From a virus, in the IMG/VR virus record IMGVR_UViG_3300022538_000399, positions 1-38,921 of that record: 38,921 bases of DNA; one strand, written 5' to 3'. This document shows, piece after piece, positions 8,728 to 38,921 of the stretch. Made by a program: the position numbers and the translations under genes. The notes beneath the pieces are model-generated. The model saw only the letters and a program-made list of their open reading frames with translations, was not told the origin of the DNA and searched no databases. The stretch's first letter is position 1, and each line of letters begins with the position of its first letter.

Positions 8728-10500
8728 TTATAGCTCCTTTCCATTTAGGCTGGAATTGCTTGCAAGTTCGATGCAAACATTAGCTCCATTTGGATAAAAT
8801 AATTTTTTTGAACTAGTAAGTTTTTTAGTAAGACTACAAATTCCCCAAAATATATGACTTGTCATTCTTGCCACCAATGATGGTTTTTTATGTATTTCAA
8901 GTTTATGTTTCATGGTTTGCAATACTGGTTCAGCAAGAAATCGCTTAACATGTTTAACTATGCTCGGATGTGCCTTACAAAGACTAATTATTTTTTTAGC
9001 AACCTGATAATAACCAATCAATGTTTCAGGATGTAGTTTTCTTGCACAATATACCCTCGTTACATGCGCTTGTCGAGAATCAGCACCGTATAGATATGAA
9101 AATAGGATACAACCAACAACACGGGTAACCTCTTTTGCGACTTGTGCCATTGGCCTAAGTGGTTCTTTTACAGCTTTTCTAACGACTCGCATACCTTCCT
9201 TGCCAACTACATCCTCTCTAACTCTTCTTGTTTCTTGTTCAATATCACCCCAATAACGTCTATGTTCTTCCTCTAATTTTTTTCCTGTTGCTTCGGTCGC
9301 TTCTGGTTCCATAGCCATCATGGCAGGCAAGGCAAGCATTCCCCAAGGAGTCATGCCCATTCCTATCAAATAAGCAGTCCAAGTAGCAGTTCCAAGCAAT
9401 CCATATCCATGCTGATGAGATGCCTTTGCTCCAAGCATTTTTGACCCATAATATCCCATAGGATAACCCATCATCCCATACCCAACAGCAGAGACTGGGC
9501 CTGTACCAGCAAGGGGGCCTCCTGCTGCTGGTGTAGCAGTTGCAGGAGTTGCCATTGATACTTCGGCTCCGGCTCCTGCTCCGGCTCCTGCTCCTTGCGT
9601 ATAAGCACTGGGAGCAGTAATTAAGCCTGCTTCAGCTCCTGCTCCGGCCTCTAAACCCAAAGCTCCTGCTCCTGATTCAGTAAAAAGAGCCGCTTCCACG
9701 CCAGGTGTAAGTCCAGCGACTTGTCCGCCTGCACCACCAAACTTTGCTGAAAGGGCGGTATATTCAGGTGAGCCATAAATTAATGCGCCACTTGCTGTCC
9801 TACTTGCTAAGGCATATGGCGCTGCCATCGCTTGAGTAGGTCCTTCTAATGCCATCTTTGTTTGTTGAGAAAGAATATCAGGTGCTACCTGTCCCTCTTG
9901 TCCAGAAACTAATGCTTTCATTGTTTGTTCTGCGGTTACTTGTTGACTCGGAGCAGCTGCTCTCGTCATAGTTCCTGCCTCTAATGCCTGTTGCGCTTCT
10001 ACCGTAGTAGCCATTGCTTGTCTGGTTGCAAGTGGTAATGCTTCTGGTCTATTTATAGCAAACAGCTCAGCACCTGGATAAGGTGGAGCAGCTAAACCTC
10101 CAGTTCCAGTTATTGCTGGAACAGTACTTGCTGCTGGTGCAAGCGCATTATACATCTGATAACCCTGAAGTGCCTGCATGCCTAATTGAGCAGCTTGCAA
10201 GCCCTGACCTATTCCAGTTTGCCTTTGCTGTAATCCCTGCTGACTTTGCATAAAAGCTAATTGTTCTTGCTCAAATGCTTCCTGAGCCGTCATTTGCTCT
10301 CGCTGTAAACCTAATCGTTCTCTACCAAGTTCTATTTCCCGACCTCTTGCAAGTTCGGTTTGAGCCATTTCCCGCCCAGTAAGTTTTTCCTGTTCTCTCT
10401 GGGCATATAAAGAAGTTAAATAGGGTATTTGTGACTCTATTAAAGCCCTATAACTTGGTCGTCTTCGTCTGCCAGTAACTGCACCGAATTGGTAAGCCAT
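8728..10500 (-). CDS. Internal core/ejection-type protein, Ala-Gly-rich, with Cys-led C-terminal domain
   Basis: 590 residues. Residues 35-110 are an Arg/Glu/Gln coiled coil. Residues 110-330 are Ala/Gly/Pro/Gln low complexity, including an alternating Gly-Ala tract. Residues about 335-395 are hydrophobic and Met/Gly-rich (MGYPMGYYGSK, then PWGMLALPAMMAM), suiting membrane insertion. The C-terminal ~130 residues start with CILFSYLYG and continue ARKLHPETLIGYYQVAKKI. That arrangement resembles a degenerate Cys-led (CFI-box-like) C-terminal domain seen on other phage proteins, but this is only similarity by eye. No good ribosome-binding site lies close to the ATG; the nearest, GAGGGAG, is about 20 bases upstream. 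Confidence 0.65.
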   Translation of the reverse strand: MAYQFGAVTGRRRRPSYRALIESQIPYLTSLYAQREQEKLTGREMAQTELARGREIELGRERLGLQREQMTAQEAFEQEQLAFMQSQQGLQQRQTGIGQGLQAAQLGMQALQGYQMYNALAPAASTVPAITGTGGLAAPPYPGAELFAINRPEALPLATRQAMATTVEAQQALEAGTMTRAAAPSQQVTAEQTMKALVSGQEGQVAPDILSQQTKMALEGPTQAMAAPYALASRTASGALIYGSPEYTALSAKFGGAGGQVAGLTPGVEAALFTESGAGALGLEAGAGAEAGLITAPSAYTQGAGAGAGAGAEVSMATPATATPAAGGPLAGTGPVSAVGYGMMGYPMGYYGSKMLGAKASHQHGYGLLGTATWTAYLIGMGMTPWGMLALPAMMAMEPEATEATGKKLEEEHRRYWGDIEQETRRVREDVVGKEGMRVVRKAVKEPLRPMAQVAKEVTRVVGCILFSYLYGADSRQAHVTRVYCARKLHPETLIGYYQVAKKIISLCKAHPSIVKHVKRFLAEPVLQTMKHKLEIHKKPSLVARMTSHIFWGICSLTKKLTSSKKLFYPNGANVCIELASNSSLNGKEL

Positions 10501-10529
10501 TGTTTTTATACGTTTTTCAACGTCTCCCT

Positions 10530-11114
10530 CTATTTAAAACAACTATTATTTTTTAAATACTCTTCAAGCTGTTCTTTATTATTATTGCCGTAACCGTATT
10601 GATGGTGAAAATTTACATGACACTTTTTACAAAAAGTTATTCCATTTTGGATAGCTATTTGTAATTCAGGATTATCTCTATAAGATTCTATATGATGAGC
10701 ATTAAGATTTCCGCCTTTTTTATCTCCACAACATTGGCATTTGTAATTATCTTTTTTATAAACAGCCTCCCGCCATTCAAAATAATCAGGGTATGCCCTA
10801 TTATTATAACGATCTTCATTAGTAAGATTCGGATTCCACCTATGATTGTTTTTACCACTCATTTTCATACATGACTCTTTTGAATGTTTCCTACCAGAAG
10901 ATGCTTCCGATAATTTTTTTCGTGTTTCTTTTGAAAGATTTTCTTTCTTATGCACTTCAACCATTTTTTTTAGTGTTTTTTTTGAGTGCTTTATACCACG
11001 ACGATTATGCCCTTTTATAAAACGAACAGGTTGATCTTTTTTCCAACCATGACAAGATCGAGTTCGTTTAGCTATTGGTGCTGGATTTCCACAGCCACAT
11101 TCACAAAGTTTGAT
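10530..11114 (-). CDS. HNH endonuclease with NUMOD3-like repeats; probable ATC start
   Basis: The ATG at 10964 gives 144 residues, but the frame continues upstream with no ATG, GTG or TTG. The extension reads KLCECGCGNPAPIAKR followed by PVRFIKGHNRRG, which I recognise as the usual N-terminus of phage HNH endonucleases of this type, normally beginning MKLCECGCG. Exactly where that Met should be there is ATC (11112-11114), 8 bases after AAGGAG. I therefore model 194 residues. Basic NUMOD3-like repeats (LSKETRKKLSEASSGRKHS) precede the HNH core: CQCCG, AHHIE, then FCKKCHVNFH. It probably acts as a free-standing homing nuclease inserted between structural genes. Confidence 0.75.
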   Translation of the reverse strand: MKLCECGCGNPAPIAKRTRSCHGWKKDQPVRFIKGHNRRGIKHSKKTLKKMVEVHKKENLSKETRKKLSEASSGRKHSKESCMKMSGKNNHRWNPNLTNEDRYNNRAYPDYFEWREAVYKKDNYKCQCCGDKKGGNLNAHHIESYRDNPELQIAIQNGITFCKKCHVNFHHQYGYGNNNKEQLEEYLKNNSCFK

Positions 11115-11115
11115 T

Positions 11116-11586
11116 TTAGTAACTCCTTGTTCCCATCATTCTTGCTATATCCAGGTAAGCTTTAGCCATTTTTTGTTTTTGTTTCATTCCCTGCCAGCCG
11201 ATAAGACCAGATACTCCGATACCAGCTACACCTAAAGCGGTGGATATAGGCAGTTGTTTTTTACCGAACTCAAATTGTTCACGCCTGAGTCCAAGCAAGG
11301 ACTGTTCTGCTCTCATTCTACTCTCAAATCTTTCTTTACCGAGAGTCAGTTCTTCTTTTCCAAGTTCATACCGTTGCGTTTGAGTCTTGGCTCTTAATGC
11401 CAGTTGTTTTTTACGATATTTCTTTTCAGCTCCAAGCCGTGTTGATTGAATCATCTTTCTTGATTCTACATCTCCAAAGCTCTCATCAAGCATAGCAGTA
11501 TTAACAATCGCTTTTTGGTCAGGAGTCATTCTTCGTAGTTTTAATAATGCTCTCTGGTATCTTGGATGTTCATTCCAGTTAATCAT
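11116..11586 (-). CDS. Small coiled-coil protein with C-terminal membrane segment (internal virion candidate)
   Basis: 156 residues. Residues 50-115 are a strongly charged Arg/Lys/Gln/Glu coiled coil (KKYRKKQLALRAK, then LGLRREQFEFGKKQ). Residues 117-135 are hydrophobic and Gly-rich (STALGVAGIGVSGLIGW), compatible with a transmembrane helix. The design (coiled coil then Gly-rich hydrophobic segment) mirrors the N-terminal half of the 590-residue protein two genes downstream, so a small ejection or core protein is plausible. The start ATG overlaps the previous gene's stop by 4 bases. Family not recognised. Confidence 0.6.
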   Translation of the reverse strand: MINWNEHPRYQRALLKLRRMTPDQKAIVNTAMLDESFGDVESRKMIQSTRLGAEKKYRKKQLALRAKTQTQRYELGKEELTLGKERFESRMRAEQSLLGLRREQFEFGKKQLPISTALGVAGIGVSGLIGWQGMKQKQKMAKAYLDIARMMGTRSY

Positions 11587-12023: not shown

Positions 12024-12857
12024 CTATTTATATTGATAACGAACAACCACGATACCTGAACCACCGGAAGCTCCAGCCCCCGTTGAACCACCACCACCTC
12101 CGCCGGTATTAGCAGTTCCGTTTGTAGCTGACCCTATTCCAGCAAATCCAGCCCCTCCACCATATGATGCCGTTCCTGCTGTATAGCCACCTTCGCAACC
12201 ACCACCGCCTCCGCCAGCGTAATTCAAAGCAGCGCCTGAAATTGAAGAAGACGATCCAGCTCCACCATTGCCACCACCTACAAGCGTTACTCCATTAGCT
12301 CCTACTGCACCTGCACCACCACCGCCGCCGCCTGGGTATGAGTCGCTTCCAGCACCACCGTCACCACCAGCTTCACACTGTCCAGCAGGAGTGGCTGAAC
12401 CGCCAGTTTTATTATAACCGCCTCCGCCACCAGAACCTCCAGCAACTCCATTTACATTAGCAGCACCACCATTACCACCACCAACTGATATGATAGAATC
12501 AAATACAGAATTTGATCCCCCTGCACCAGGCGCACCGCCAGCACCTATTGTTACTGTTTTTGCACCTGGCGTTATTACAAGAGTGGTTGTTCTATATCCG
12601 CCAGCACCACCAGCTCCGTTTTTTCCACCAGCACCGGCAGCAACTACAAGATAGGTAACCGTACCGCCGTTTGAAACTGTTAGTGTTCCAGTACTAGTAA
12701 AGGTATGGATTTTGTAATCACCATCAGTGGTTTCAGTTCCACCTGAAGCTATTAAAAATTTTCCACCAGCCGTTCCTAAAATAGCTGGTCTAAGTATTGC
12801 ATAGGCAGTCCCAACCATAACAAAAACAATCAGAATGCTTAATAATATTTTTTTCAT
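12024..12857 (-). CDS. Exported glycine-rich adhesin / tail-fibre tip protein
   Basis: 277 residues. Residues 1-19 are a Sec signal peptide (MKKILLSILIVFVMVGTAYA). After a short beta region (KIHTFTSTGTLTVSNG, then YLVVAAGAGG) nearly the whole protein is Gly-rich, with many runs of 4-6 glycines separated by short turns, and ends GGSGIVVVRYQYK. This is the architecture of the Gly-rich phage tail-fibre/adhesin domain (the phage S16-type adhesin forms a polyglycine-II sandwich). It lies in a block with other fibre genes. The adhesin assignment is good; the specificity is unknown, and the leader peptide is unexpected. Confidence 0.8.
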   Translation of the reverse strand: MKKILLSILIVFVMVGTAYAILRPAILGTAGGKFLIASGGTETTDGDYKIHTFTSTGTLTVSNGGTVTYLVVAAGAGGKNGAGGAGGYRTTTLVITPGAKTVTIGAGGAPGAGGSNSVFDSIISVGGGNGGAANVNGVAGGSGGGGGYNKTGGSATPAGQCEAGGDGGAGSDSYPGGGGGGAGAVGANGVTLVGGGNGGAGSSSSISGAALNYAGGGGGGCEGGYTAGTASYGGGAGFAGIGSATNGTANTGGGGGGSTGAGASGGSGIVVVRYQYK

Positions 12858-12860
12858 ATT

Positions 12861-13922
12861 TTATGCACCGCCGTCTGTTACTGTTGTTCCGACACCAGAT
12901 GATACCATCCAGTCATAAGCACCGGCTCCGGTTTGAAATGCCCAAAACGTCATTGAATTACCTACCGCTGGAGTTGCAATAGAAGCCTTGTCTCCGTCAG
13001 TTAATGCTGTTCCATTTAGATATATTTTATCGCCAGTATTAGCCTTTAAATGAAATGCACCTGCTCCAGCCGTTGCAATATGAACGATTCCATTAAGCCC
13101 TTCGGCTGCGGCAGGAAGTGTTTGCGTGTTCGCTGCCCCCTGACCATAATTATTTATAAATGTTCCTGAGCATTCCGCAGCAGTAAGTGTGTCTGTAGCT
13201 GCCTGAACTACTTCTGTGGCTGTTATTATTGTGGCTGCTATCTGACTCTGCATCTGGAAATTAGTACCGTCATATACTACTGTTAGTATTTGACCAGCTT
13301 CGATATCTCCAGTAGCAGGATCTTGGTCATGTAATTTTTTTATATCAATTGCACCAAGAGCATTTACATTTAAGGTACATGCTCCTGTATTAGCTGTCTT
13401 AGCGTAAAAATGTACTACCATGCCTGTTACATAGGCTGCTACCGCTGGGACATAGGTAGCTACGTAAGTGTCCGAAGCTTGAGCATCAGCCACATAAGTC
13501 ATTGTTCCAGCTTGAAGCACGTAAGCAAGATTGTCTGGCACAAGCGCCTTATCTGTAGCAGTACCAGCTATTGCTTCTGTGTTGGTAGATATTTCAATCG
13601 TACCTTCCACCGTAGTTGAAGCAGCAGGTTTTACTTCTGTTAATAACCACCTTTTATCTCCGGCATTTGTGTCGGGTGAAATAATATCCGGTGAGCTTTC
13701 AGTAGCGGCAGAAGTAGAATCAAGTACATAAAAATAAGTTCCTGTCGATATTCTAACCGTGCAAACATCACCATCGCTTAAAAGCGAACCGTTTATGGCA
13801 TCAAGACAACCAGAAGTGCCACCTGTTAAGACATATGCTCCGTAAGACTCTACGGTGGCATGAGCAATACCGCCCATAAAAATAAAACAAGTTATGAATA
13901 ACGATAATAATAATTTTTTCAT
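12861..13922 (-). CDS. Exported tail-fibre protein with phage_fiber_2-like repeat
   Basis: 353 residues starting with a Sec signal peptide (MKKLLLSLFITCFIF, cleavage near GGIAHA). Residues about 95-130 read STTVEGTIEISTNTEAIAG followed by TDKALVPDNLAYVL, the fibre repeat found in many phage tail fibres. The C-terminal half is Ala/Gly/Thr-rich beta sequence ending WMVSSGVGTTVTDGGA. The start codon overlaps the stop of the 966-residue tail protein (TAATG) with GGAAGGA just upstream, showing translational coupling to a bona fide tail gene. A fibre is likely; receptor unknown. Confidence 0.8.
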   Translation of the reverse strand: MKKLLLSLFITCFIFMGGIAHATVESYGAYVLTGGTSGCLDAINGSLLSDGDVCTVRISTGTYFYVLDSTSAATESSPDIISPDTNAGDKRWLLTEVKPAASTTVEGTIEISTNTEAIAGTATDKALVPDNLAYVLQAGTMTYVADAQASDTYVATYVPAVAAYVTGMVVHFYAKTANTGACTLNVNALGAIDIKKLHDQDPATGDIEAGQILTVVYDGTNFQMQSQIAATIITATEVVQAATDTLTAAECSGTFINNYGQGAANTQTLPAAAEGLNGIVHIATAGAGAFHLKANTGDKIYLNGTALTDGDKASIATPAVGNSMTFWAFQTGAGAYDWMVSSGVGTTVTDGGA

Positions 13923-16822
13923 TATCTATCCTTCCTTACAAAAGAATATTCCATCCCCCATGCTATAGGTTGGAATCCTTTAGCCGAATCATCAGTTGTT
14001 AATTGAAATCCAAAACCATGCGCCCAACCTAATATATCTAATATTCCTGTTGTTCTTACCAATCGGTACATTCCTTCAGCCAAACTTAATTCTAAAGAGC
14101 CAAGACCGGCAGAACTCCATATAAAATCATCTGTATCAGTCCATACAAAAGCCGAAGTATCTGCCCATACAAAATCTGTGCCTTCTGACATATTAGTATC
14201 GGCATAATAACTTAATTTTAAATCGTGGTCTTCGGTTATTCTTTTTGCGACAATCTTTACTCGCCTGACTCTGGTTTTATCCCATATACTGCCTGTCGGC
14301 CAAAAATCGCCAGTTACAACCTTTTGAGTAATACCTGTTCCATTCCAGCTTGTACCGTCTTCTAGTTGCATCATATATCCAGAATCTATTCCGGCATAAA
14401 TATATTGAGTTCCATATTCATCTATAACCCTGAAAGCGCATTGAGGACGTCCTGCTGAACCTGTTGATTTTTCGTACCATTTCTTTCTTACAAGATCATA
14501 AACAAACCATTTATTATTAGTTATCTGACTTGCGCCGGAAGGAATTAATAAATTATATTCCTTATAGGTAGCATCAAACCAGCCTCTTGAATTTTCAATT
14601 GCATCAAAATTAATACAGTCTGTTTCATTGGGGTCAAAATATTTATCAATCCCACGAATCGGAATTAGTACAGCTCCGTCAAATATCATCGGGCCAGCAT
14701 AAGATAACCAGATAGCAACATTTCTCTCAATATCTGTTGCTATTTGAAATCCTACTTCTGCATTATCTAAAGTCAATGGTGCAGGACAGCCGACAGTGAA
14801 CGATACTGGAAGTATTTTAAAATTTTCCGGCCCATCTCCGGTTAATAAATAGGTTTCGCTATTTTTCAGACCAAGCCATGAAACAATAACATTAGAACCG
14901 AACCTGTTATATATTTGTGTTCCACAGGTAAGATCATCGGAATTTCCAAAATATAAACTCTGTTCTTTATTCTTGCTTGATTCATCACCGTTAAGCATTT
15001 GGGGGGAATTAGATACAGAATAATCAACCCTGTTTCCCTCTTTTCCTTCAGTATCCCCGCATAAAAGAAGTCTGTTTCTATAAGATGACGGAAACTTATA
15101 TGCTCTGATAGTTTGCTGTGACGGTACGCCAGCTACAAGGTCAATAACTATTTCTGGTTCTCTATCAATAGTAAAAACTACCGTGTCTCCAGAAGCCTCG
15201 TCTGCTCCAAGAGTATCGTTGGTAATAGTAATAACTGTGGATGTAACCTTAACTACTGCAAATACGCCGTTGTTTGTGTCTGTTCCTGCAACTTCAATAT
15301 ATTCTCCGGCTTTAACTCCAGCGGTTACAAAATTCCCTGCTGCCGTAGTAATAGTATCCGGGTCGTTTGTTTTGCTAAAAGTTATATCGGTTCTTATATA
15401 TTTAGGAGTTGAACCGGAAAGAGTCGCACTTGAAACTATTTTGTAGGCATAACCTTTTTTGCCGAATAATTCTGTTTTAGTTTCGTCTGTTTCGGATGGC
15501 GGATTCCAACTCGCCAAACCGCTTTGACCGAATACTTTACTATTAGCCACAGTACCATCAGTAACAGTCCCAACAGTTGTCCATGTAACACCTTGTCTGT
15601 AATAGATTGTAGCTGTTGCAGCATTCTGGTTTACAAGAGTTCCCAAGAGCGTATAATTAATCGCCGACATACGTTCTTCAAACATTACAACTATATAATC
15701 AGACGTAGTTAAACCATCAAGAATACCACCTATGGGAAGTTCTTCATAAGACGAAGCGTTTACCTGAAGCGTATAATCCTCAAAAGTTCCGGTTGAATCC
15801 CTATATATCTGAAATGCTATCGGCTGTCTTTTAACTCCATCCCATATATCAACAATATCCTGCCAGGGAGCATTAACCGTAACAAAACTGACTGCTGGAC
15901 TTCCGTCAGTAATCGCAAACTGATAAGCATATAAATAAAGATTCTCAAAGTGAAATGGTTTTGCGGTATCAACAGTCGAGTCGAAAGTCATTGTGCCGGA
16001 CTGAGCTAAAGACTTACCACTGGAAGATGTATTGTCAGATAAATTACCTACTGATACAAAACTTGAACCATTCCAAACTTTACCGCTTGTAGTTGAAGTA
16101 GCGGTATTGGCTGTTTTTACTGTATATTTAACCGCTTGAATTGGTCTTGGAGTAAATACAAGCCAGTTTCTTGTAGTAGCACCGATTAAAACAATGTTGT
16201 TGGGAGAATCATCAAGGGTGGTATTAACTCTTTCAGTATATTCTATCGGATTGGTACGACTTGAATCAGAACAGGTAAAAAATGCCGAACATCGCTGTTC
16301 ATTACCTGCCCAGATAATTACCTCTTTACCGTTGCAGTATATTACATCATTACTTACTGTAGTAAATAAACCAAGTCCTGAACCGGAAACATCGGTATGT
16401 AAAACATCTGGAGAAAAATCACCCTGACTTCCAATATCTGTCTGATTTTGTAATACCTGCGAAGAAGTTAGACCAGCATTTTCGGCTTGGACAATAACAT
16501 ATGAATCTATATCGTAATTTGTTCTTAATTGATGACCATTCCTAATTTTAAGAGAAGTAGTTAAAGCAGTAGTATTTACTTTTGTATATCCAGAAATACC
16601 TTCTAAACGGTCATCTTTATAACGTAAATTCTGTAATATTTTAAAATTATTCGGGCCGATATTAGCAGGGTCGATATCCGGCATCCATGCTCCGTTAAAC
16701 GGAAACTGGACGTACTGGTATGCTTGTCTGTCTTGTGCATGTGCGCTAACACAAAACAATACTGCAAAAATCAGACATATAAATAATTTACCGCTTCGGA
16801 GCGTCTGCCTCTTCTTTTTGAT
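13922..16822 (-). CDS. Large podoviral tail protein with an N-terminal signal peptide; probable ATC start
   Basis: A TTG at 16759 gives 945 residues, but it would cut through a hydrophobic leader. The frame is open back to 16827 and reads KKKRQTLRSGK, then LFICLIFAVLFCV, then SAHAQ, a textbook Sec signal peptide. The only start-like codon that includes it is ATC at 16820-16822, 6 bases after AGGAG; this gives 966 residues and a 35-base overlap with the adaptor gene. The mature N-terminus (PFNGAWMPDIDPANIG, then LQNLRYKDDRLEGISGYTK) matches a podophage tail/stopper-type family as I recall it. A DPDTIT-type domain (DNA about 15170-15390) is shared with the connector-like protein upstream. Role: tail or nozzle component. 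Confidence 0.75.
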   Translation of the reverse strand: MKKKRQTLRSGKLFICLIFAVLFCVSAHAQDRQAYQYVQFPFNGAWMPDIDPANIGPNNFKILQNLRYKDDRLEGISGYTKVNTTALTTSLKIRNGHQLRTNYDIDSYVIVQAENAGLTSSQVLQNQTDIGSQGDFSPDVLHTDVSGSGLGLFTTVSNDVIYCNGKEVIIWAGNEQRCSAFFTCSDSSRTNPIEYTERVNTTLDDSPNNIVLIGATTRNWLVFTPRPIQAVKYTVKTANTATSTTSGKVWNGSSFVSVGNLSDNTSSSGKSLAQSGTMTFDSTVDTAKPFHFENLYLYAYQFAITDGSPAVSFVTVNAPWQDIVDIWDGVKRQPIAFQIYRDSTGTFEDYTLQVNASSYEELPIGGILDGLTTSDYIVVMFEERMSAINYTLLGTLVNQNAATATIYYRQGVTWTTVGTVTDGTVANSKVFGQSGLASWNPPSETDETKTELFGKKGYAYKIVSSATLSGSTPKYIRTDITFSKTNDPDTITTAAGNFVTAGVKAGEYIEVAGTDTNNGVFAVVKVTSTVITITNDTLGADEASGDTVVFTIDREPEIVIDLVAGVPSQQTIRAYKFPSSYRNRLLLCGDTEGKEGNRVDYSVSNSPQMLNGDESSKNKEQSLYFGNSDDLTCGTQIYNRFGSNVIVSWLGLKNSETYLLTGDGPENFKILPVSFTVGCPAPLTLDNAEVGFQIATDIERNVAIWLSYAGPMIFDGAVLIPIRGIDKYFDPNETDCINFDAIENSRGWFDATYKEYNLLIPSGASQITNNKWFVYDLVRKKWYEKSTGSAGRPQCAFRVIDEYGTQYIYAGIDSGYMMQLEDGTSWNGTGITQKVVTGDFWPTGSIWDKTRVRRVKIVAKRITEDHDLKLSYYADTNMSEGTDFVWADTSAFVWTDTDDFIWSSAGLGSLELSLAEGMYRLVRTTGILDILGWAHGFGFQLTTDDSAKGFQPIAWGMEYSFVRKDR

Positions 16823-20970: not shown

Positions 20971-21949
20971 CAAACGCCTTCTCATCTTCATCTGGTTGAA
21001 TTTCATCTGTTTGTGAAACGATAGTTTTGCTTTTTATAGTGCCTTTATGCAAGTCATCGCTCTTTTTCTTTTTATCTTTCTTCTTTTTGTCAAACTCCTC
21101 AACATTCCCTTTTGCAATATCTTTTTTGTACAAGTCAATAATAGTTATCGCATCTGCTGGTGTTTGAAGGGCTTTTGCCAAAGCCTGAATACCCTTTGAC
21201 TGTTTCTCAAGCCACACTTCCTTAAATGCAGAATCTTTATTGATTTTAATTGCATCTGCATGGACTTCCATAACCTCGTTCCAGAATTTAAGGTCAGATA
21301 CTTCCTGATATAAACTATTCATAGCTTTGGTTGCATCTTCTCTAAAACTATCAACCGATTTCTGAGTTACAACCACACCTTTTTCAATAAGGTCTTCAAC
21401 CATTTTCTGGGCAATTGTCGCACTTAAAATCTTGGTAGCATTAAATTCTTCTGGGTATTCTTTAGCGTATTCTTTAAGATTTATAGTATCATTGCCGATT
21501 ATAACCTCACCTGGAAGCTCATCATTATTAATCAATTTTAAGTGGTCTGCGATAACTTCCTTTGTTAATGCAGGAGAGGTTGTTCCTTTTGGCGGTTCTT
21601 CTAACCCCTCCTGCTTTGAATCGGATGAAGGAGGTTGGTCATCCGATGATGGGGGCAGTTCTTCTTCAATACCCCTTTCTTTTATTATCTGATCGAGTTT
21701 GTCTTCAGGTTCAAGTTCTTCTTCTGGTTCCTCTTCTTTATCATCTTCCTTTTTTTCTTCCGGTTTTTTCTCATCCTCTACCTTTTTTTCAGACTCTTCC
21801 GACTTTTTATCTGTTTCAACTTTTTTATCTGTTTCTGGTTCTTCTTCTTCCGCTACTTCTGTGTCAGAAACAAAAGTATCAAAATCAGGTTCGCCTTCCT
21901 TATCTTCGATTTGCTCTGAGATTTCTTCTTCTATTACATCCTCTGGCAT
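20954..21949 (-). CDS. Capsid scaffolding protein (by position and composition)
   Basis: 331 residues. The first ~130 residues are extremely acidic (Glu/Asp with Lys, for example EEEPETDKKVETDKKSEESE), followed by a helical middle (LKFWNEVMEVHADAIKINKD) and a Lys-rich C-terminus with DKKKKDKKKKSDD. Charged helical proteins directly upstream of the capsid gene are characteristic scaffolds. No protease motif was seen. The ATG has AAAAGGAGAAAAAA before it. The acidic tract yields long shadow frames on the other strand, which are artefacts. Confidence 0.7.
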   Translation of the reverse strand: MPEDVIEEEISEQIEDKEGEPDFDTFVSDTEVAEEEEPETDKKVETDKKSEESEKKVEDEKKPEEKKEDDKEEEPEEELEPEDKLDQIIKERGIEEELPPSSDDQPPSSDSKQEGLEEPPKGTTSPALTKEVIADHLKLINNDELPGEVIIGNDTINLKEYAKEYPEEFNATKILSATIAQKMVEDLIEKGVVVTQKSVDSFREDATKAMNSLYQEVSDLKFWNEVMEVHADAIKINKDSAFKEVWLEKQSKGIQALAKALQTPADAITIIDLYKKDIAKGNVEEFDKKKKDKKKKSDDLHKGTIKSKTIVSQTDEIQPDEDEKAFDEHAK

Positions 21950-23070
21950 TTTTTTCTCCTTTTTTTTCTAACTTTAACTTGTTGTGAACACTCTCTTAAT
22001 TGTATTTCTAAAATTGCCAACCAAGTTACCTGCACAATTGCAGTAACCCCAATACACCACAGCCATGAATAGCAACTATGCACTAATATTACTATTAATG
22101 CTGTTGTTGAAATAAGAGCTTCTTTTGTAAATCTTTTAAATATATTAGTAAGATATCCTGCAATTAAAATCCATGCTCCGATTCCCATTTCAAAAAGCAC
22201 CTGAAAAAAGTCATTATGAGCATGCAACTGCTTGGTTACTAATTTCCAATGTCCAAGCCCGTAACCTAATATCCAATATTCTTTATAATATTCCCAACCG
22301 ACTTTCCAAATATCTACTCTTCCAATTATAGAAAGAATTTTACATCTTTGTACATATTCAATAACAGCCAATAAAGATACTATAATACATCCAATTATTA
22401 TCCGATACGAAAGTCCTGAAAAAAACAGATAAAAACCCAAGCCTACATATACTGCAATCATTCCACCAGCATCCTTTGTAACAAACAGACCTATAGCTAT
22501 GATTATAAGTCCCCATCTTAAATAACGGTTAATAAGAAACGCTGACGCTGTAATAGCAAGCAAACCCGAAGCTTCGTTACTCATTGTCATTAAACCTGTT
22601 GGATTGCCAGACATTGTAGATTTCATAAATCCAAAAGTAAATGTTCCATATGGGTCTAACCCAAAATGTTGATAAATTAAAAATATAGTATGAACAAAAG
22701 CTATCCCGCACATCGCCCACATTAAAAACTTAACCGTATTTTTATTAAATACTAAAACAATTATCATATACCAGACTATTCCAAAAAAAACAGAATTACG
22801 AGTTAGTAAAGCATTTTCATCAGCCAATGGATAAAAAAACGAAAATACTGCAAGTAAAGCAAAAAACCCTATCCATTTATTACCTTTATATACAACAAAA
22901 AAACCTAACGCTAACAGAATACCTGTTTCTATAATAATTCTAATAATGTCCCTGCTTTGTCCTATCCCAGCAGGCAATCGTAATACTGACATTAAAAATA
23001 ATATTATTGCTATAATAATTCCTAATCTATATTCAGCAACTATGGGTTTTTTACTAATCTTTTTACCCAC
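21934..23070 (-). CDS. Wzy_C-family membrane protein (O-antigen ligase / PglL-like), copy 2
   Basis: 378 residues with about ten hydrophobic transmembrane segments. The start is GTG at 23070 behind GGAGAAAAC, overlapping copy 1 by 31 bases. The C-terminal third contains the periplasmic-loop signature YGLGHWKLV followed by AHNDFFQVLFEMG, that is His-Asn-x9-Gly as in O-antigen ligases and bacterial protein O-oligosaccharyltransferases. It is paralogous to copy 1: both continue GYLTNIF(K/R)RFTKE and end with a W(L/M)AIL segment. Acceptor (lipid A core, protein or other) cannot be read from sequence. The location between an exported fibre gene and the scaffold is unusual. Confidence 0.75.
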   Translation of the reverse strand: MGKKISKKPIVAEYRLGIIIAIILFLMSVLRLPAGIGQSRDIIRIIIETGILLALGFFVVYKGNKWIGFFALLAVFSFFYPLADENALLTRNSVFFGIVWYMIIVLVFNKNTVKFLMWAMCGIAFVHTIFLIYQHFGLDPYGTFTFGFMKSTMSGNPTGLMTMSNEASGLLAITASAFLINRYLRWGLIIIAIGLFVTKDAGGMIAVYVGLGFYLFFSGLSYRIIIGCIIVSLLAVIEYVQRCKILSIIGRVDIWKVGWEYYKEYWILGYGLGHWKLVTKQLHAHNDFFQVLFEMGIGAWILIAGYLTNIFKRFTKEALISTTALIVILVHSCYSWLWCIGVTAIVQVTWLAILEIQLRECSQQVKVRKKRRKKCQRM

Positions 23071-24158
23071 GTTTTCTCCAACTCAATTTGTAAAATAGCC
23101 ATCCATGTAATTGCAACTATGGCTGTCTGGGCTATATGGAATGGGAAATTAACCACACAATTTGCAATAATAATAACTATCGCAGTTATCGGTATAACTG
23201 TTTCTTTTGTAAATCTTCTAAATATATTAGTAAGATATCCTGTAATTATAACAGCAAATCCTATCCCCATTTCCAACAGACCTTGAACAAACTCATTATG
23301 AGCATATACCCACCACGAATCTATTACTTTATGCTGATAAGCCATGCCAAAGACTTGTTTCCAATGACCTATTCCGTAACCAAAAATCCAACGAGTTTTA
23401 TAAAATTCTATCCCTTTAGTCCATGCTTCCATTCTTTTAAAAGTCGGACTACTTATAAAAACACAATAAAAGAAACTCATTGATATAAAACACATAAATA
23501 AAATTATTGTTAACTCACTCTTTGTACAGAATCTTGATAATGGATTTGTTACAATAACATAGAACGCCATACCTATAAAAAACGATAGTGTTCCGCCAAT
23601 TGTCATTGTCAAAGCCAATCCCAATAAGACTATGGATAAAAAATATTTCCATCGACCTATTAAAAACGCCGGACTGCAAAATGCTATCAAAGCGCTAACT
23701 TCATTTTGATTTGCTAATAAACCAACTCTTAATGTTGTTTCTTCCCATAATTTTGTCGGGACTGTTAATGGGTCTAAACCAAAAAACTGTAACCCAAGCC
23801 AGAATATATTAACAAAACAAATAATCCTTATTCCATGCAATAGCCATTTTACATCTTTTACTGTTAAAACTAATACTGAATACCATAATATTCCAAAAAA
23901 TACGTACCTGAAAGCAAAAATGGAATCTTCAGTATTAAACGGATGCAAGGCTGAACCAAAGGCTAATATTAAAAACAGCCCGCACCACAAATTTATCTTA
24001 GCGATACCGATTGCCAGGGCAAGAACAATTATTACTTCAAACATTACTTGCCCCGACAATCGAACATCGGTTATGGTTAATAATGGCGTACCCAATACCG
24101 CAAAAATAAGCAGTATTGAAAGTGCATTAGAGACCTTTTGTGTACGTCCAGATAGCAT
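23040..24158 (-). CDS. Wzy_C-family membrane protein (O-antigen ligase / PglL-like), copy 1
   Basis: 372 residues, about ten transmembrane segments. The ATG is preceded by GGAAGTAAGCA and overlaps the end of the exported fibre gene by 32 bases. The ligase-type signature is YGIGHWKQV, then AHNEFVQGLLEMG in a predicted periplasmic loop. The short cytoplasmic N-terminus and multi-pass topology fit the O-antigen ligase / polymerase / PglL superfamily, whose members transfer undecaprenyl-linked glycans in the periplasm. Phages use such genes to change host surface sugars (seroconversion), but usually as morons outside the head operon. Substrate unknown. Confidence 0.75.
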   Translation of the reverse strand: MLSGRTQKVSNALSILLIFAVLGTPLLTITDVRLSGQVMFEVIIVLALAIGIAKINLWCGLFLILAFGSALHPFNTEDSIFAFRYVFFGILWYSVLVLTVKDVKWLLHGIRIICFVNIFWLGLQFFGLDPLTVPTKLWEETTLRVGLLANQNEVSALIAFCSPAFLIGRWKYFLSIVLLGLALTMTIGGTLSFFIGMAFYVIVTNPLSRFCTKSELTIILFMCFISMSFFYCVFISSPTFKRMEAWTKGIEFYKTRWIFGYGIGHWKQVFGMAYQHKVIDSWWVYAHNEFVQGLLEMGIGFAVIITGYLTNIFRRFTKETVIPITAIVIIIANCVVNFPFHIAQTAIVAITWMAILQIELEKTWVKRLVKNP

Positions 24159-38716: not shown

Positions 38717-38746
38717 AATTTACCTCAAGAAATATAACAATTTAGC

Positions 38747-38911
38747 TCACAGGCGGCGAATTGGACATACTCCGCCGAACATATTTGTAGAACCGCACGT
38801 TGGACAAAACTCTTTTTCTAAATCAATATCACCTTCGCTGTCCGGTGCAGCGGTGGTTAGGGGACGCTTAAATATCCACTCTGTCTCTCTATGAAAGAGT
38901 ATAACCGCCAC
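38747..38911 (-). CDS. Small zinc-ribbon-type protein, GTG start or continuing past the right edge
   Basis: The frame ends KEFCPTCGSTNMFGGVCPIRRL before TGA. A GTG at 38911 with GGGAG five bases upstream gives 54 residues; the frame is also open to the window edge, so the start may lie outside. CPTC and a later Cys point to metal binding. Confidence 0.5.
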   Translation of the reverse strand: MAVILFHRETEWIFKRPLTTAAPDSEGDIDLEKEFCPTCGSTNMFGGVCPIRRL

Positions 38912-38921
38912 CAACTCCCAT

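Follow-up and report, generated by a model that had tools for sequence, protein, structure and literature searches.

How can a nuclease gene be expressed when its reading frame holds no start codon at the position where one is expected? This question is raised by a putative HNH endonuclease frame of 194 codons (10530–11114, minus strand, as are all genes and motifs located below), which runs from an ATC to a TAG at 10530 in a viral stretch of 38,921 nt, here called the window (IMG/VR record IMGVR_UViG_3300022538_000399, positions 1 to 38,921). An earlier note on this DNA had placed the opening of the frame at the ATC with AAGGAG 8 nt ahead, and the sequence confirms it: the start region reads TGA TGG GAA CAA GGA GTT ACT AAA ATC AAA CTT TGT GAA TGT GGC TGT GGA, with the ATC at 11112–11114 and the Shine-Dalgarno (SD) motif AAGGAG at 11123–11128. 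As had also been claimed, ATG, GTG and TTG are absent back to the in-frame TGA (11138–11136), and the earliest in-frame ATG is codon 51, at 10964, 50 codons downstream of the ATC and past the N-terminal finger of the protein. The upstream gene, encoding a 156-aa protein (11116–11586), ends with its TAA at 11116, one base ahead of the ATC. Predicted binding to the anti-SD sequence amounts to -8.0 kcal/mol at the ATC site, compared with -8.4 kcal/mol for the 156-aa gene and -8.7 kcal/mol for the capsid gene. Little folding is predicted for the start region, no more than for its shuffles (z +1.5), which suggests that the ribosome-binding site is open. The gene thus presents what is expected of AUC initiation, namely the absence of a canonical start and an SD at working distance, and translation presumably begins at the ATC.

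Judged from its translation, the gene is an intact, real HNH nuclease frame. The Pfam HNH model (PF01844), which has a cut-off of 21.4 bits, scores 25.8 bits over residues 126–171 of 194; matches to several PHROG HNH families were also obtained, and the H-N-H and CxxC residues can be recognised by inspection (CQCCGDK...AHH...NGITFCKKCHVNFH). NUMOD3 stays below its cut-off (E 0.34), and the model of the RNA-guided nuclease IscB (NCBIfam NF040563) reaches 36.5 bits, over the HNH part only, against 175 required. Solved structures gave no sequence match, and the HNH protein is absent from all 18 capsid-related virus records searched. The N-terminus consists of a 39-codon finger module, KLCECGCG...GHNRRG (10995–11111; phrog_25114, E 1.4e-8).

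This finger (KLCECGCGNPAPIAKRT...GHNRRG) forms a module of its own, which in many phage proteins stands ahead of various HNH domains. Scanning with a finger profile gave 80 viral loci which, together with one plasmid locus, represent 70 distinct sequences; the genome contigs scanned yielded repeat-motif (NUMOD3-like) matches only and no finger homologue. In all 70 homologues the finger is preceded by an in-frame ATG, GTG or TTG, and in none does the Met lie further downstream, the outcome that the earlier note had named as refuting its reading. A downstream start in the window gene would therefore delete a conserved module. The start codon stands directly ahead of the finger (KLC or GLC) in 15 of the 70 (12 ATG and 3 GTG), whereas the majority of the remaining homologues start 2–8 codons earlier. 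The claim that the ATC occupies the usual position of Met holds in so far as this is the commonest position, with ATG as the commonest codon there (12/70); it has to be relaxed in that a start may lie anywhere from 1 to over 10 codons ahead of the finger. Phage proteins of the phrog_25114-like type, for example those at loci L078 and L083, have the finger followed by an HNH domain as here; unlike every one of these homologues, the window gene has no canonical start ahead of its finger.

The origin of this arrangement is indicated by a sister phage (IMGVR_UViG_3300033153_004456, hereafter G020), in which homologues of the two flanking genes adjoin and the HNH gene is absent between them. These flanking genes encode the 156-aa protein, 62% identical in G020, and a 590-aa virion protein (8728–10500), of which the first 12 residues are identical in G020 with 63% identity over 110 residues. 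Its C-terminal part (8728–9150) is poorly conserved relative to G020, with additional residues beyond about position 455. DNA homology extends across the end of the 156-aa gene and the SD region, its last base lying immediately ahead of the 590-aa ATG. In the window, the homologous region ends at ...AACAAGGAGTTACTAAA, where the HNH frame begins with the ATC, and 614 bp further on homology is found again at ATGGCTTACCAATTC (ATGGC). The segment absent from G020 (10501–11114) has a GC content of 0.32, against 0.40 and 0.45 in its flanks. The dinucleotide AT is common to both junctions; consequently the limits of the segment are uncertain by 1–2 bp, and the AT of the ATC may derive from the old ATG of the 590-aa gene. 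The ATC is one of three things: a junction codon, the nuclease gene's own Ile codon left after loss of its ATG, or a point mutation.

Profile searches with the 156-aa and 590-aa proteins identified G020 as the only relative carrying both flanking genes; the HNH locus was not found a second time, either with the 156-aa protein as sole query or by scanning viral contigs for the exact pattern. Since the comparison involves this single relative, we infer rather than observe its polarity, that is, an insertion in the window phage and not a deletion in G020. On the basis of the alignment, AAGGAG is most likely the former SD of the 590-aa gene, captured by the nuclease, and would once have been the ribosome-binding site of the 590-aa gene in this very lineage. 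The HNH gene lies between genes, outside any intron or intein, with both flanking genes complete and an empty allele in a relative, as expected of a free-standing homing endonuclease gene. An intron was rejected, as Rfam gave no match in the window. It is most likely a mobile free-standing nuclease gene of the homing-endonuclease type, and its product may be capable of homing.

We consider it rather likely that the HNH gene entered at the start of the 590-aa gene, captured its SD and is translated weakly from the ATC with the help of coupling. A mobile HNH gene would have landed precisely where translation of the downstream virion gene began, placing its frame behind the AAGGAG of that gene with ATC replacing the former ATG; an HNH-less allele would then be expected to read AAGGAGTTACTAAAATGGCTTACC. 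The captured SD would then drive translation from the ATC at a reduced rate, probably aided by re-initiation of ribosomes that finish the 156-aa gene at its TAA. Both this coupling and a low output of nuclease appear plausible from the arrangement. The odd codon would thus lie at an insertion junction: the peculiarity is real, its origin commonplace. Of the three explanations in the earlier note, a rare start behind a real ribosome-binding site is supported, a deliberate device for low expression is not borne out, and a sequence error has become less likely. The note lacked the main cause, namely an insertion at the start codon of the next gene whose SD was taken over.

The displaced 590-aa gene would now depend on a new leader (about 10501–10530), in which GAGGGAG is followed by a predicted ACGTT-GAAA-AACGT hairpin and, after 9 nt, by the ATG. 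The stem has a probability of 0.995 in the 37-nt leader, whereas a fold of 45 nt favours another structure. The small hairpin may bring GAGGGAG near the ATG. In the hairpin-bridged ribosome-binding site of T4 gene 38, a hairpin between SD and ATG likewise shortens the effective spacing; the hairpin of the 590-aa leader, by contrast, is a prediction and is not preferred in the longer fold.

Near-cognate start codons (AUU, AUC and AUA) occur in bacteria, the AUU of infC being the well-known case. The HNH gene resembles such genes in having a near-cognate codon behind a strong SD with low output expected, and differs in that its putative start lies at a phage insertion junction. It also resembles the mob and seg genes of T4-like phages, free-standing HNH/GIY-YIG homing endonuclease genes, which are intergenic nuclease genes, present or absent between relatives and located beside structural or essential genes (PMC2988022). 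However, the free-standing homing endonuclease genes of T4 start at AUG, with only mobA at GUG (PMC2988022), whereas the window gene has AUC and a ribosome-binding site apparently taken from its displaced neighbour. Translational coupling to an upstream stop (UAAUGA) has been proposed to limit MobE in T4 (PMC2988022), and the window gene would go further, coupling an AUC start to a stop one base upstream. Published measurements make AUC a weak start that nevertheless retains activity: in E. coli it reached about 0.1–0.3% of AUG activity in one context and non-AUG codons at most 3% in another, while in two clostridia AUC gave 5–20% of AUG in one leader and alternative codons 40–100% in another (PMC9680021). 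Given the weak E. coli values, the ATC could be nearly silent in the host of this phage.

The insertion exemplifies a specific way in which phage nuclease genes can arise without a start codon of their own, by landing on the ribosome-binding site of another gene. If AUC works here, it would be a simple way to hold a nuclease at low dose, and it would account for mis-annotation of such genes. Gene-calling software that accepts no start codons other than ATG, GTG and TTG would place the beginning of the nuclease at 10964, with loss of the finger.

The coding strand was scanned for other SD-preceded frames of at least 60 codons with no canonical start nearby. Only two real genes were found, the HNH gene and a 945-codon structural gene (13922–16822), and both open at ATC; the remaining matches are shadow frames, located at the right end or inside the genes of the 590-aa and 277-aa proteins. 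In the structural gene, GGAG lies 6 nt before the ATC (16822–16820) and the anti-SD energy is -6.8 kcal/mol, while a TTG at 16759 is not preceded by an SD (-0.7 kcal/mol) and, as a start, would halve a signal-peptide-like leader which is complete from the ATC, (M)KKKRQTLRSGKLFICLIFAVLFCVSAHAQ. By the crude rule used, about 1% of stop-free random frames have such a leader, and neighbouring tail genes have similar ones. The same bases are found at this ATC in a second assembly (L008/L136), perhaps not an independent sample. A weak point is that the G020 homologue starts with ATG and has a different N-terminus without such a leader. On balance, the ATC is a probable start of the 945-codon gene.

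That AUC would be a working start codon for this phage and its host in at least two genes, one of them large, structural and required by the virion in quantity, is a proposal that we put forward tentatively and regard as doubtful. If true, initiation in the host would be far more tolerant of AUC than it is in E. coli, and in this lineage genes would be overlooked by gene finders or assigned wrong starts. Should the second ATC gene prove real, the initiation stringency of the uncultured host becomes a testable question, and this gene is the lead most worth following.

The HNH gene could instead have lost its start, its own ATG having been cut off by the insertion or mutated from G to C, leaving a freshly silenced and as yet undecayed gene that yields too little full-length nuclease to be of use. 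Such a lost start may, by comparison with the homologues, have been an ATG at the ATC position or slightly further upstream. Ile directly precedes KLCxCGCG in 8 of the 70 homologues (once as MIKLCECGCGNPAPIAK, locus L070), with Met further upstream, so the ATC could be a native Ile codon, and the very weak activity of AUC in E. coli (PMC9680021) points the same way. Against this, all 194 codons are stop-free with the catalytic residues intact, the ATC stands at an ideal distance behind a full-strength SD, and a second gene of the same phage has the same arrangement. We therefore regard silencing as unlikely, though deserving of consideration. An error of assembly or base calling, with ATG as the true sequence at 11114–11112, appears still less probable. 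ATG is the commonest codon at this place in the homologues and a single contig covers 11112, as the near-identical contig G001 stops at window position 12349, 1.2 kb short of the HNH locus. However, the consensus is accurate, an overlapping contig being identical over 18.3 kb and differing at 1 base in 8,345, and the two assemblies agree in every base on the second ATC candidate.

Were translation to begin at the internal ATG (10964), the product would be a 144-aa HNH protein that lacks the finger; in favour of this, the HNH domain lies wholly downstream and many relatives have other N-termini. This ATG lacks an SD (+1.8 kcal/mol), and its use would throw away a finger that 70 homologues retain, while a perfect SD would stand idle; we consider such a start very improbable. 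Least credible, and close to negligible, is a +1 frameshift at TAC-TAA-A fusing the 156-aa protein to the HNH frame: that frame is indeed +1 to the 156-aa gene, has no start codon and is approached by an SD-like AGGAG ahead of the stop, but the P-site tRNA-Tyr would re-pair poorly on ACU, the spacing from SD to shift site differs from that of prfB, and G020 has neither the arrangement nor the HNH gene. Rejected as well were a recoded TGA (a further TAG lies just upstream in the HNH frame, still without a start), sequestering of the ribosome-binding site in RNA as in T4 I-TevI (shuffled sequences fold at least as well as this site) and a tRNA with altered anticodon (no tRNA genes in the window, G001 or G020).

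Some further features of the window were observed. Signal-peptide-like N-termini, which are unusual for virion proteins, are present in the genes at 693, 2391, 2873, 12014, 12857, 13922, 16822, 33103 and 33352, and for two of these late or tail genes the leader is absent in the G020 homologues. Two adjacent multi-membrane-span proteins located between virion genes (21934–24158) have the look of O-antigen ligases or polymerases (Wzy-like), and NCBIfam gave no match for them. The right end of the window (38733–38921) lies inside a repeat, its 189 bp matching G001 twice (L135, 5783–5971 and 6656 onward); at this repeat, an ORF of G001 (MKYEYKSKRTDDTDPFRGSV...) is present in two copies about 870 bp apart, and the repeat is probably where the assembly stopped.
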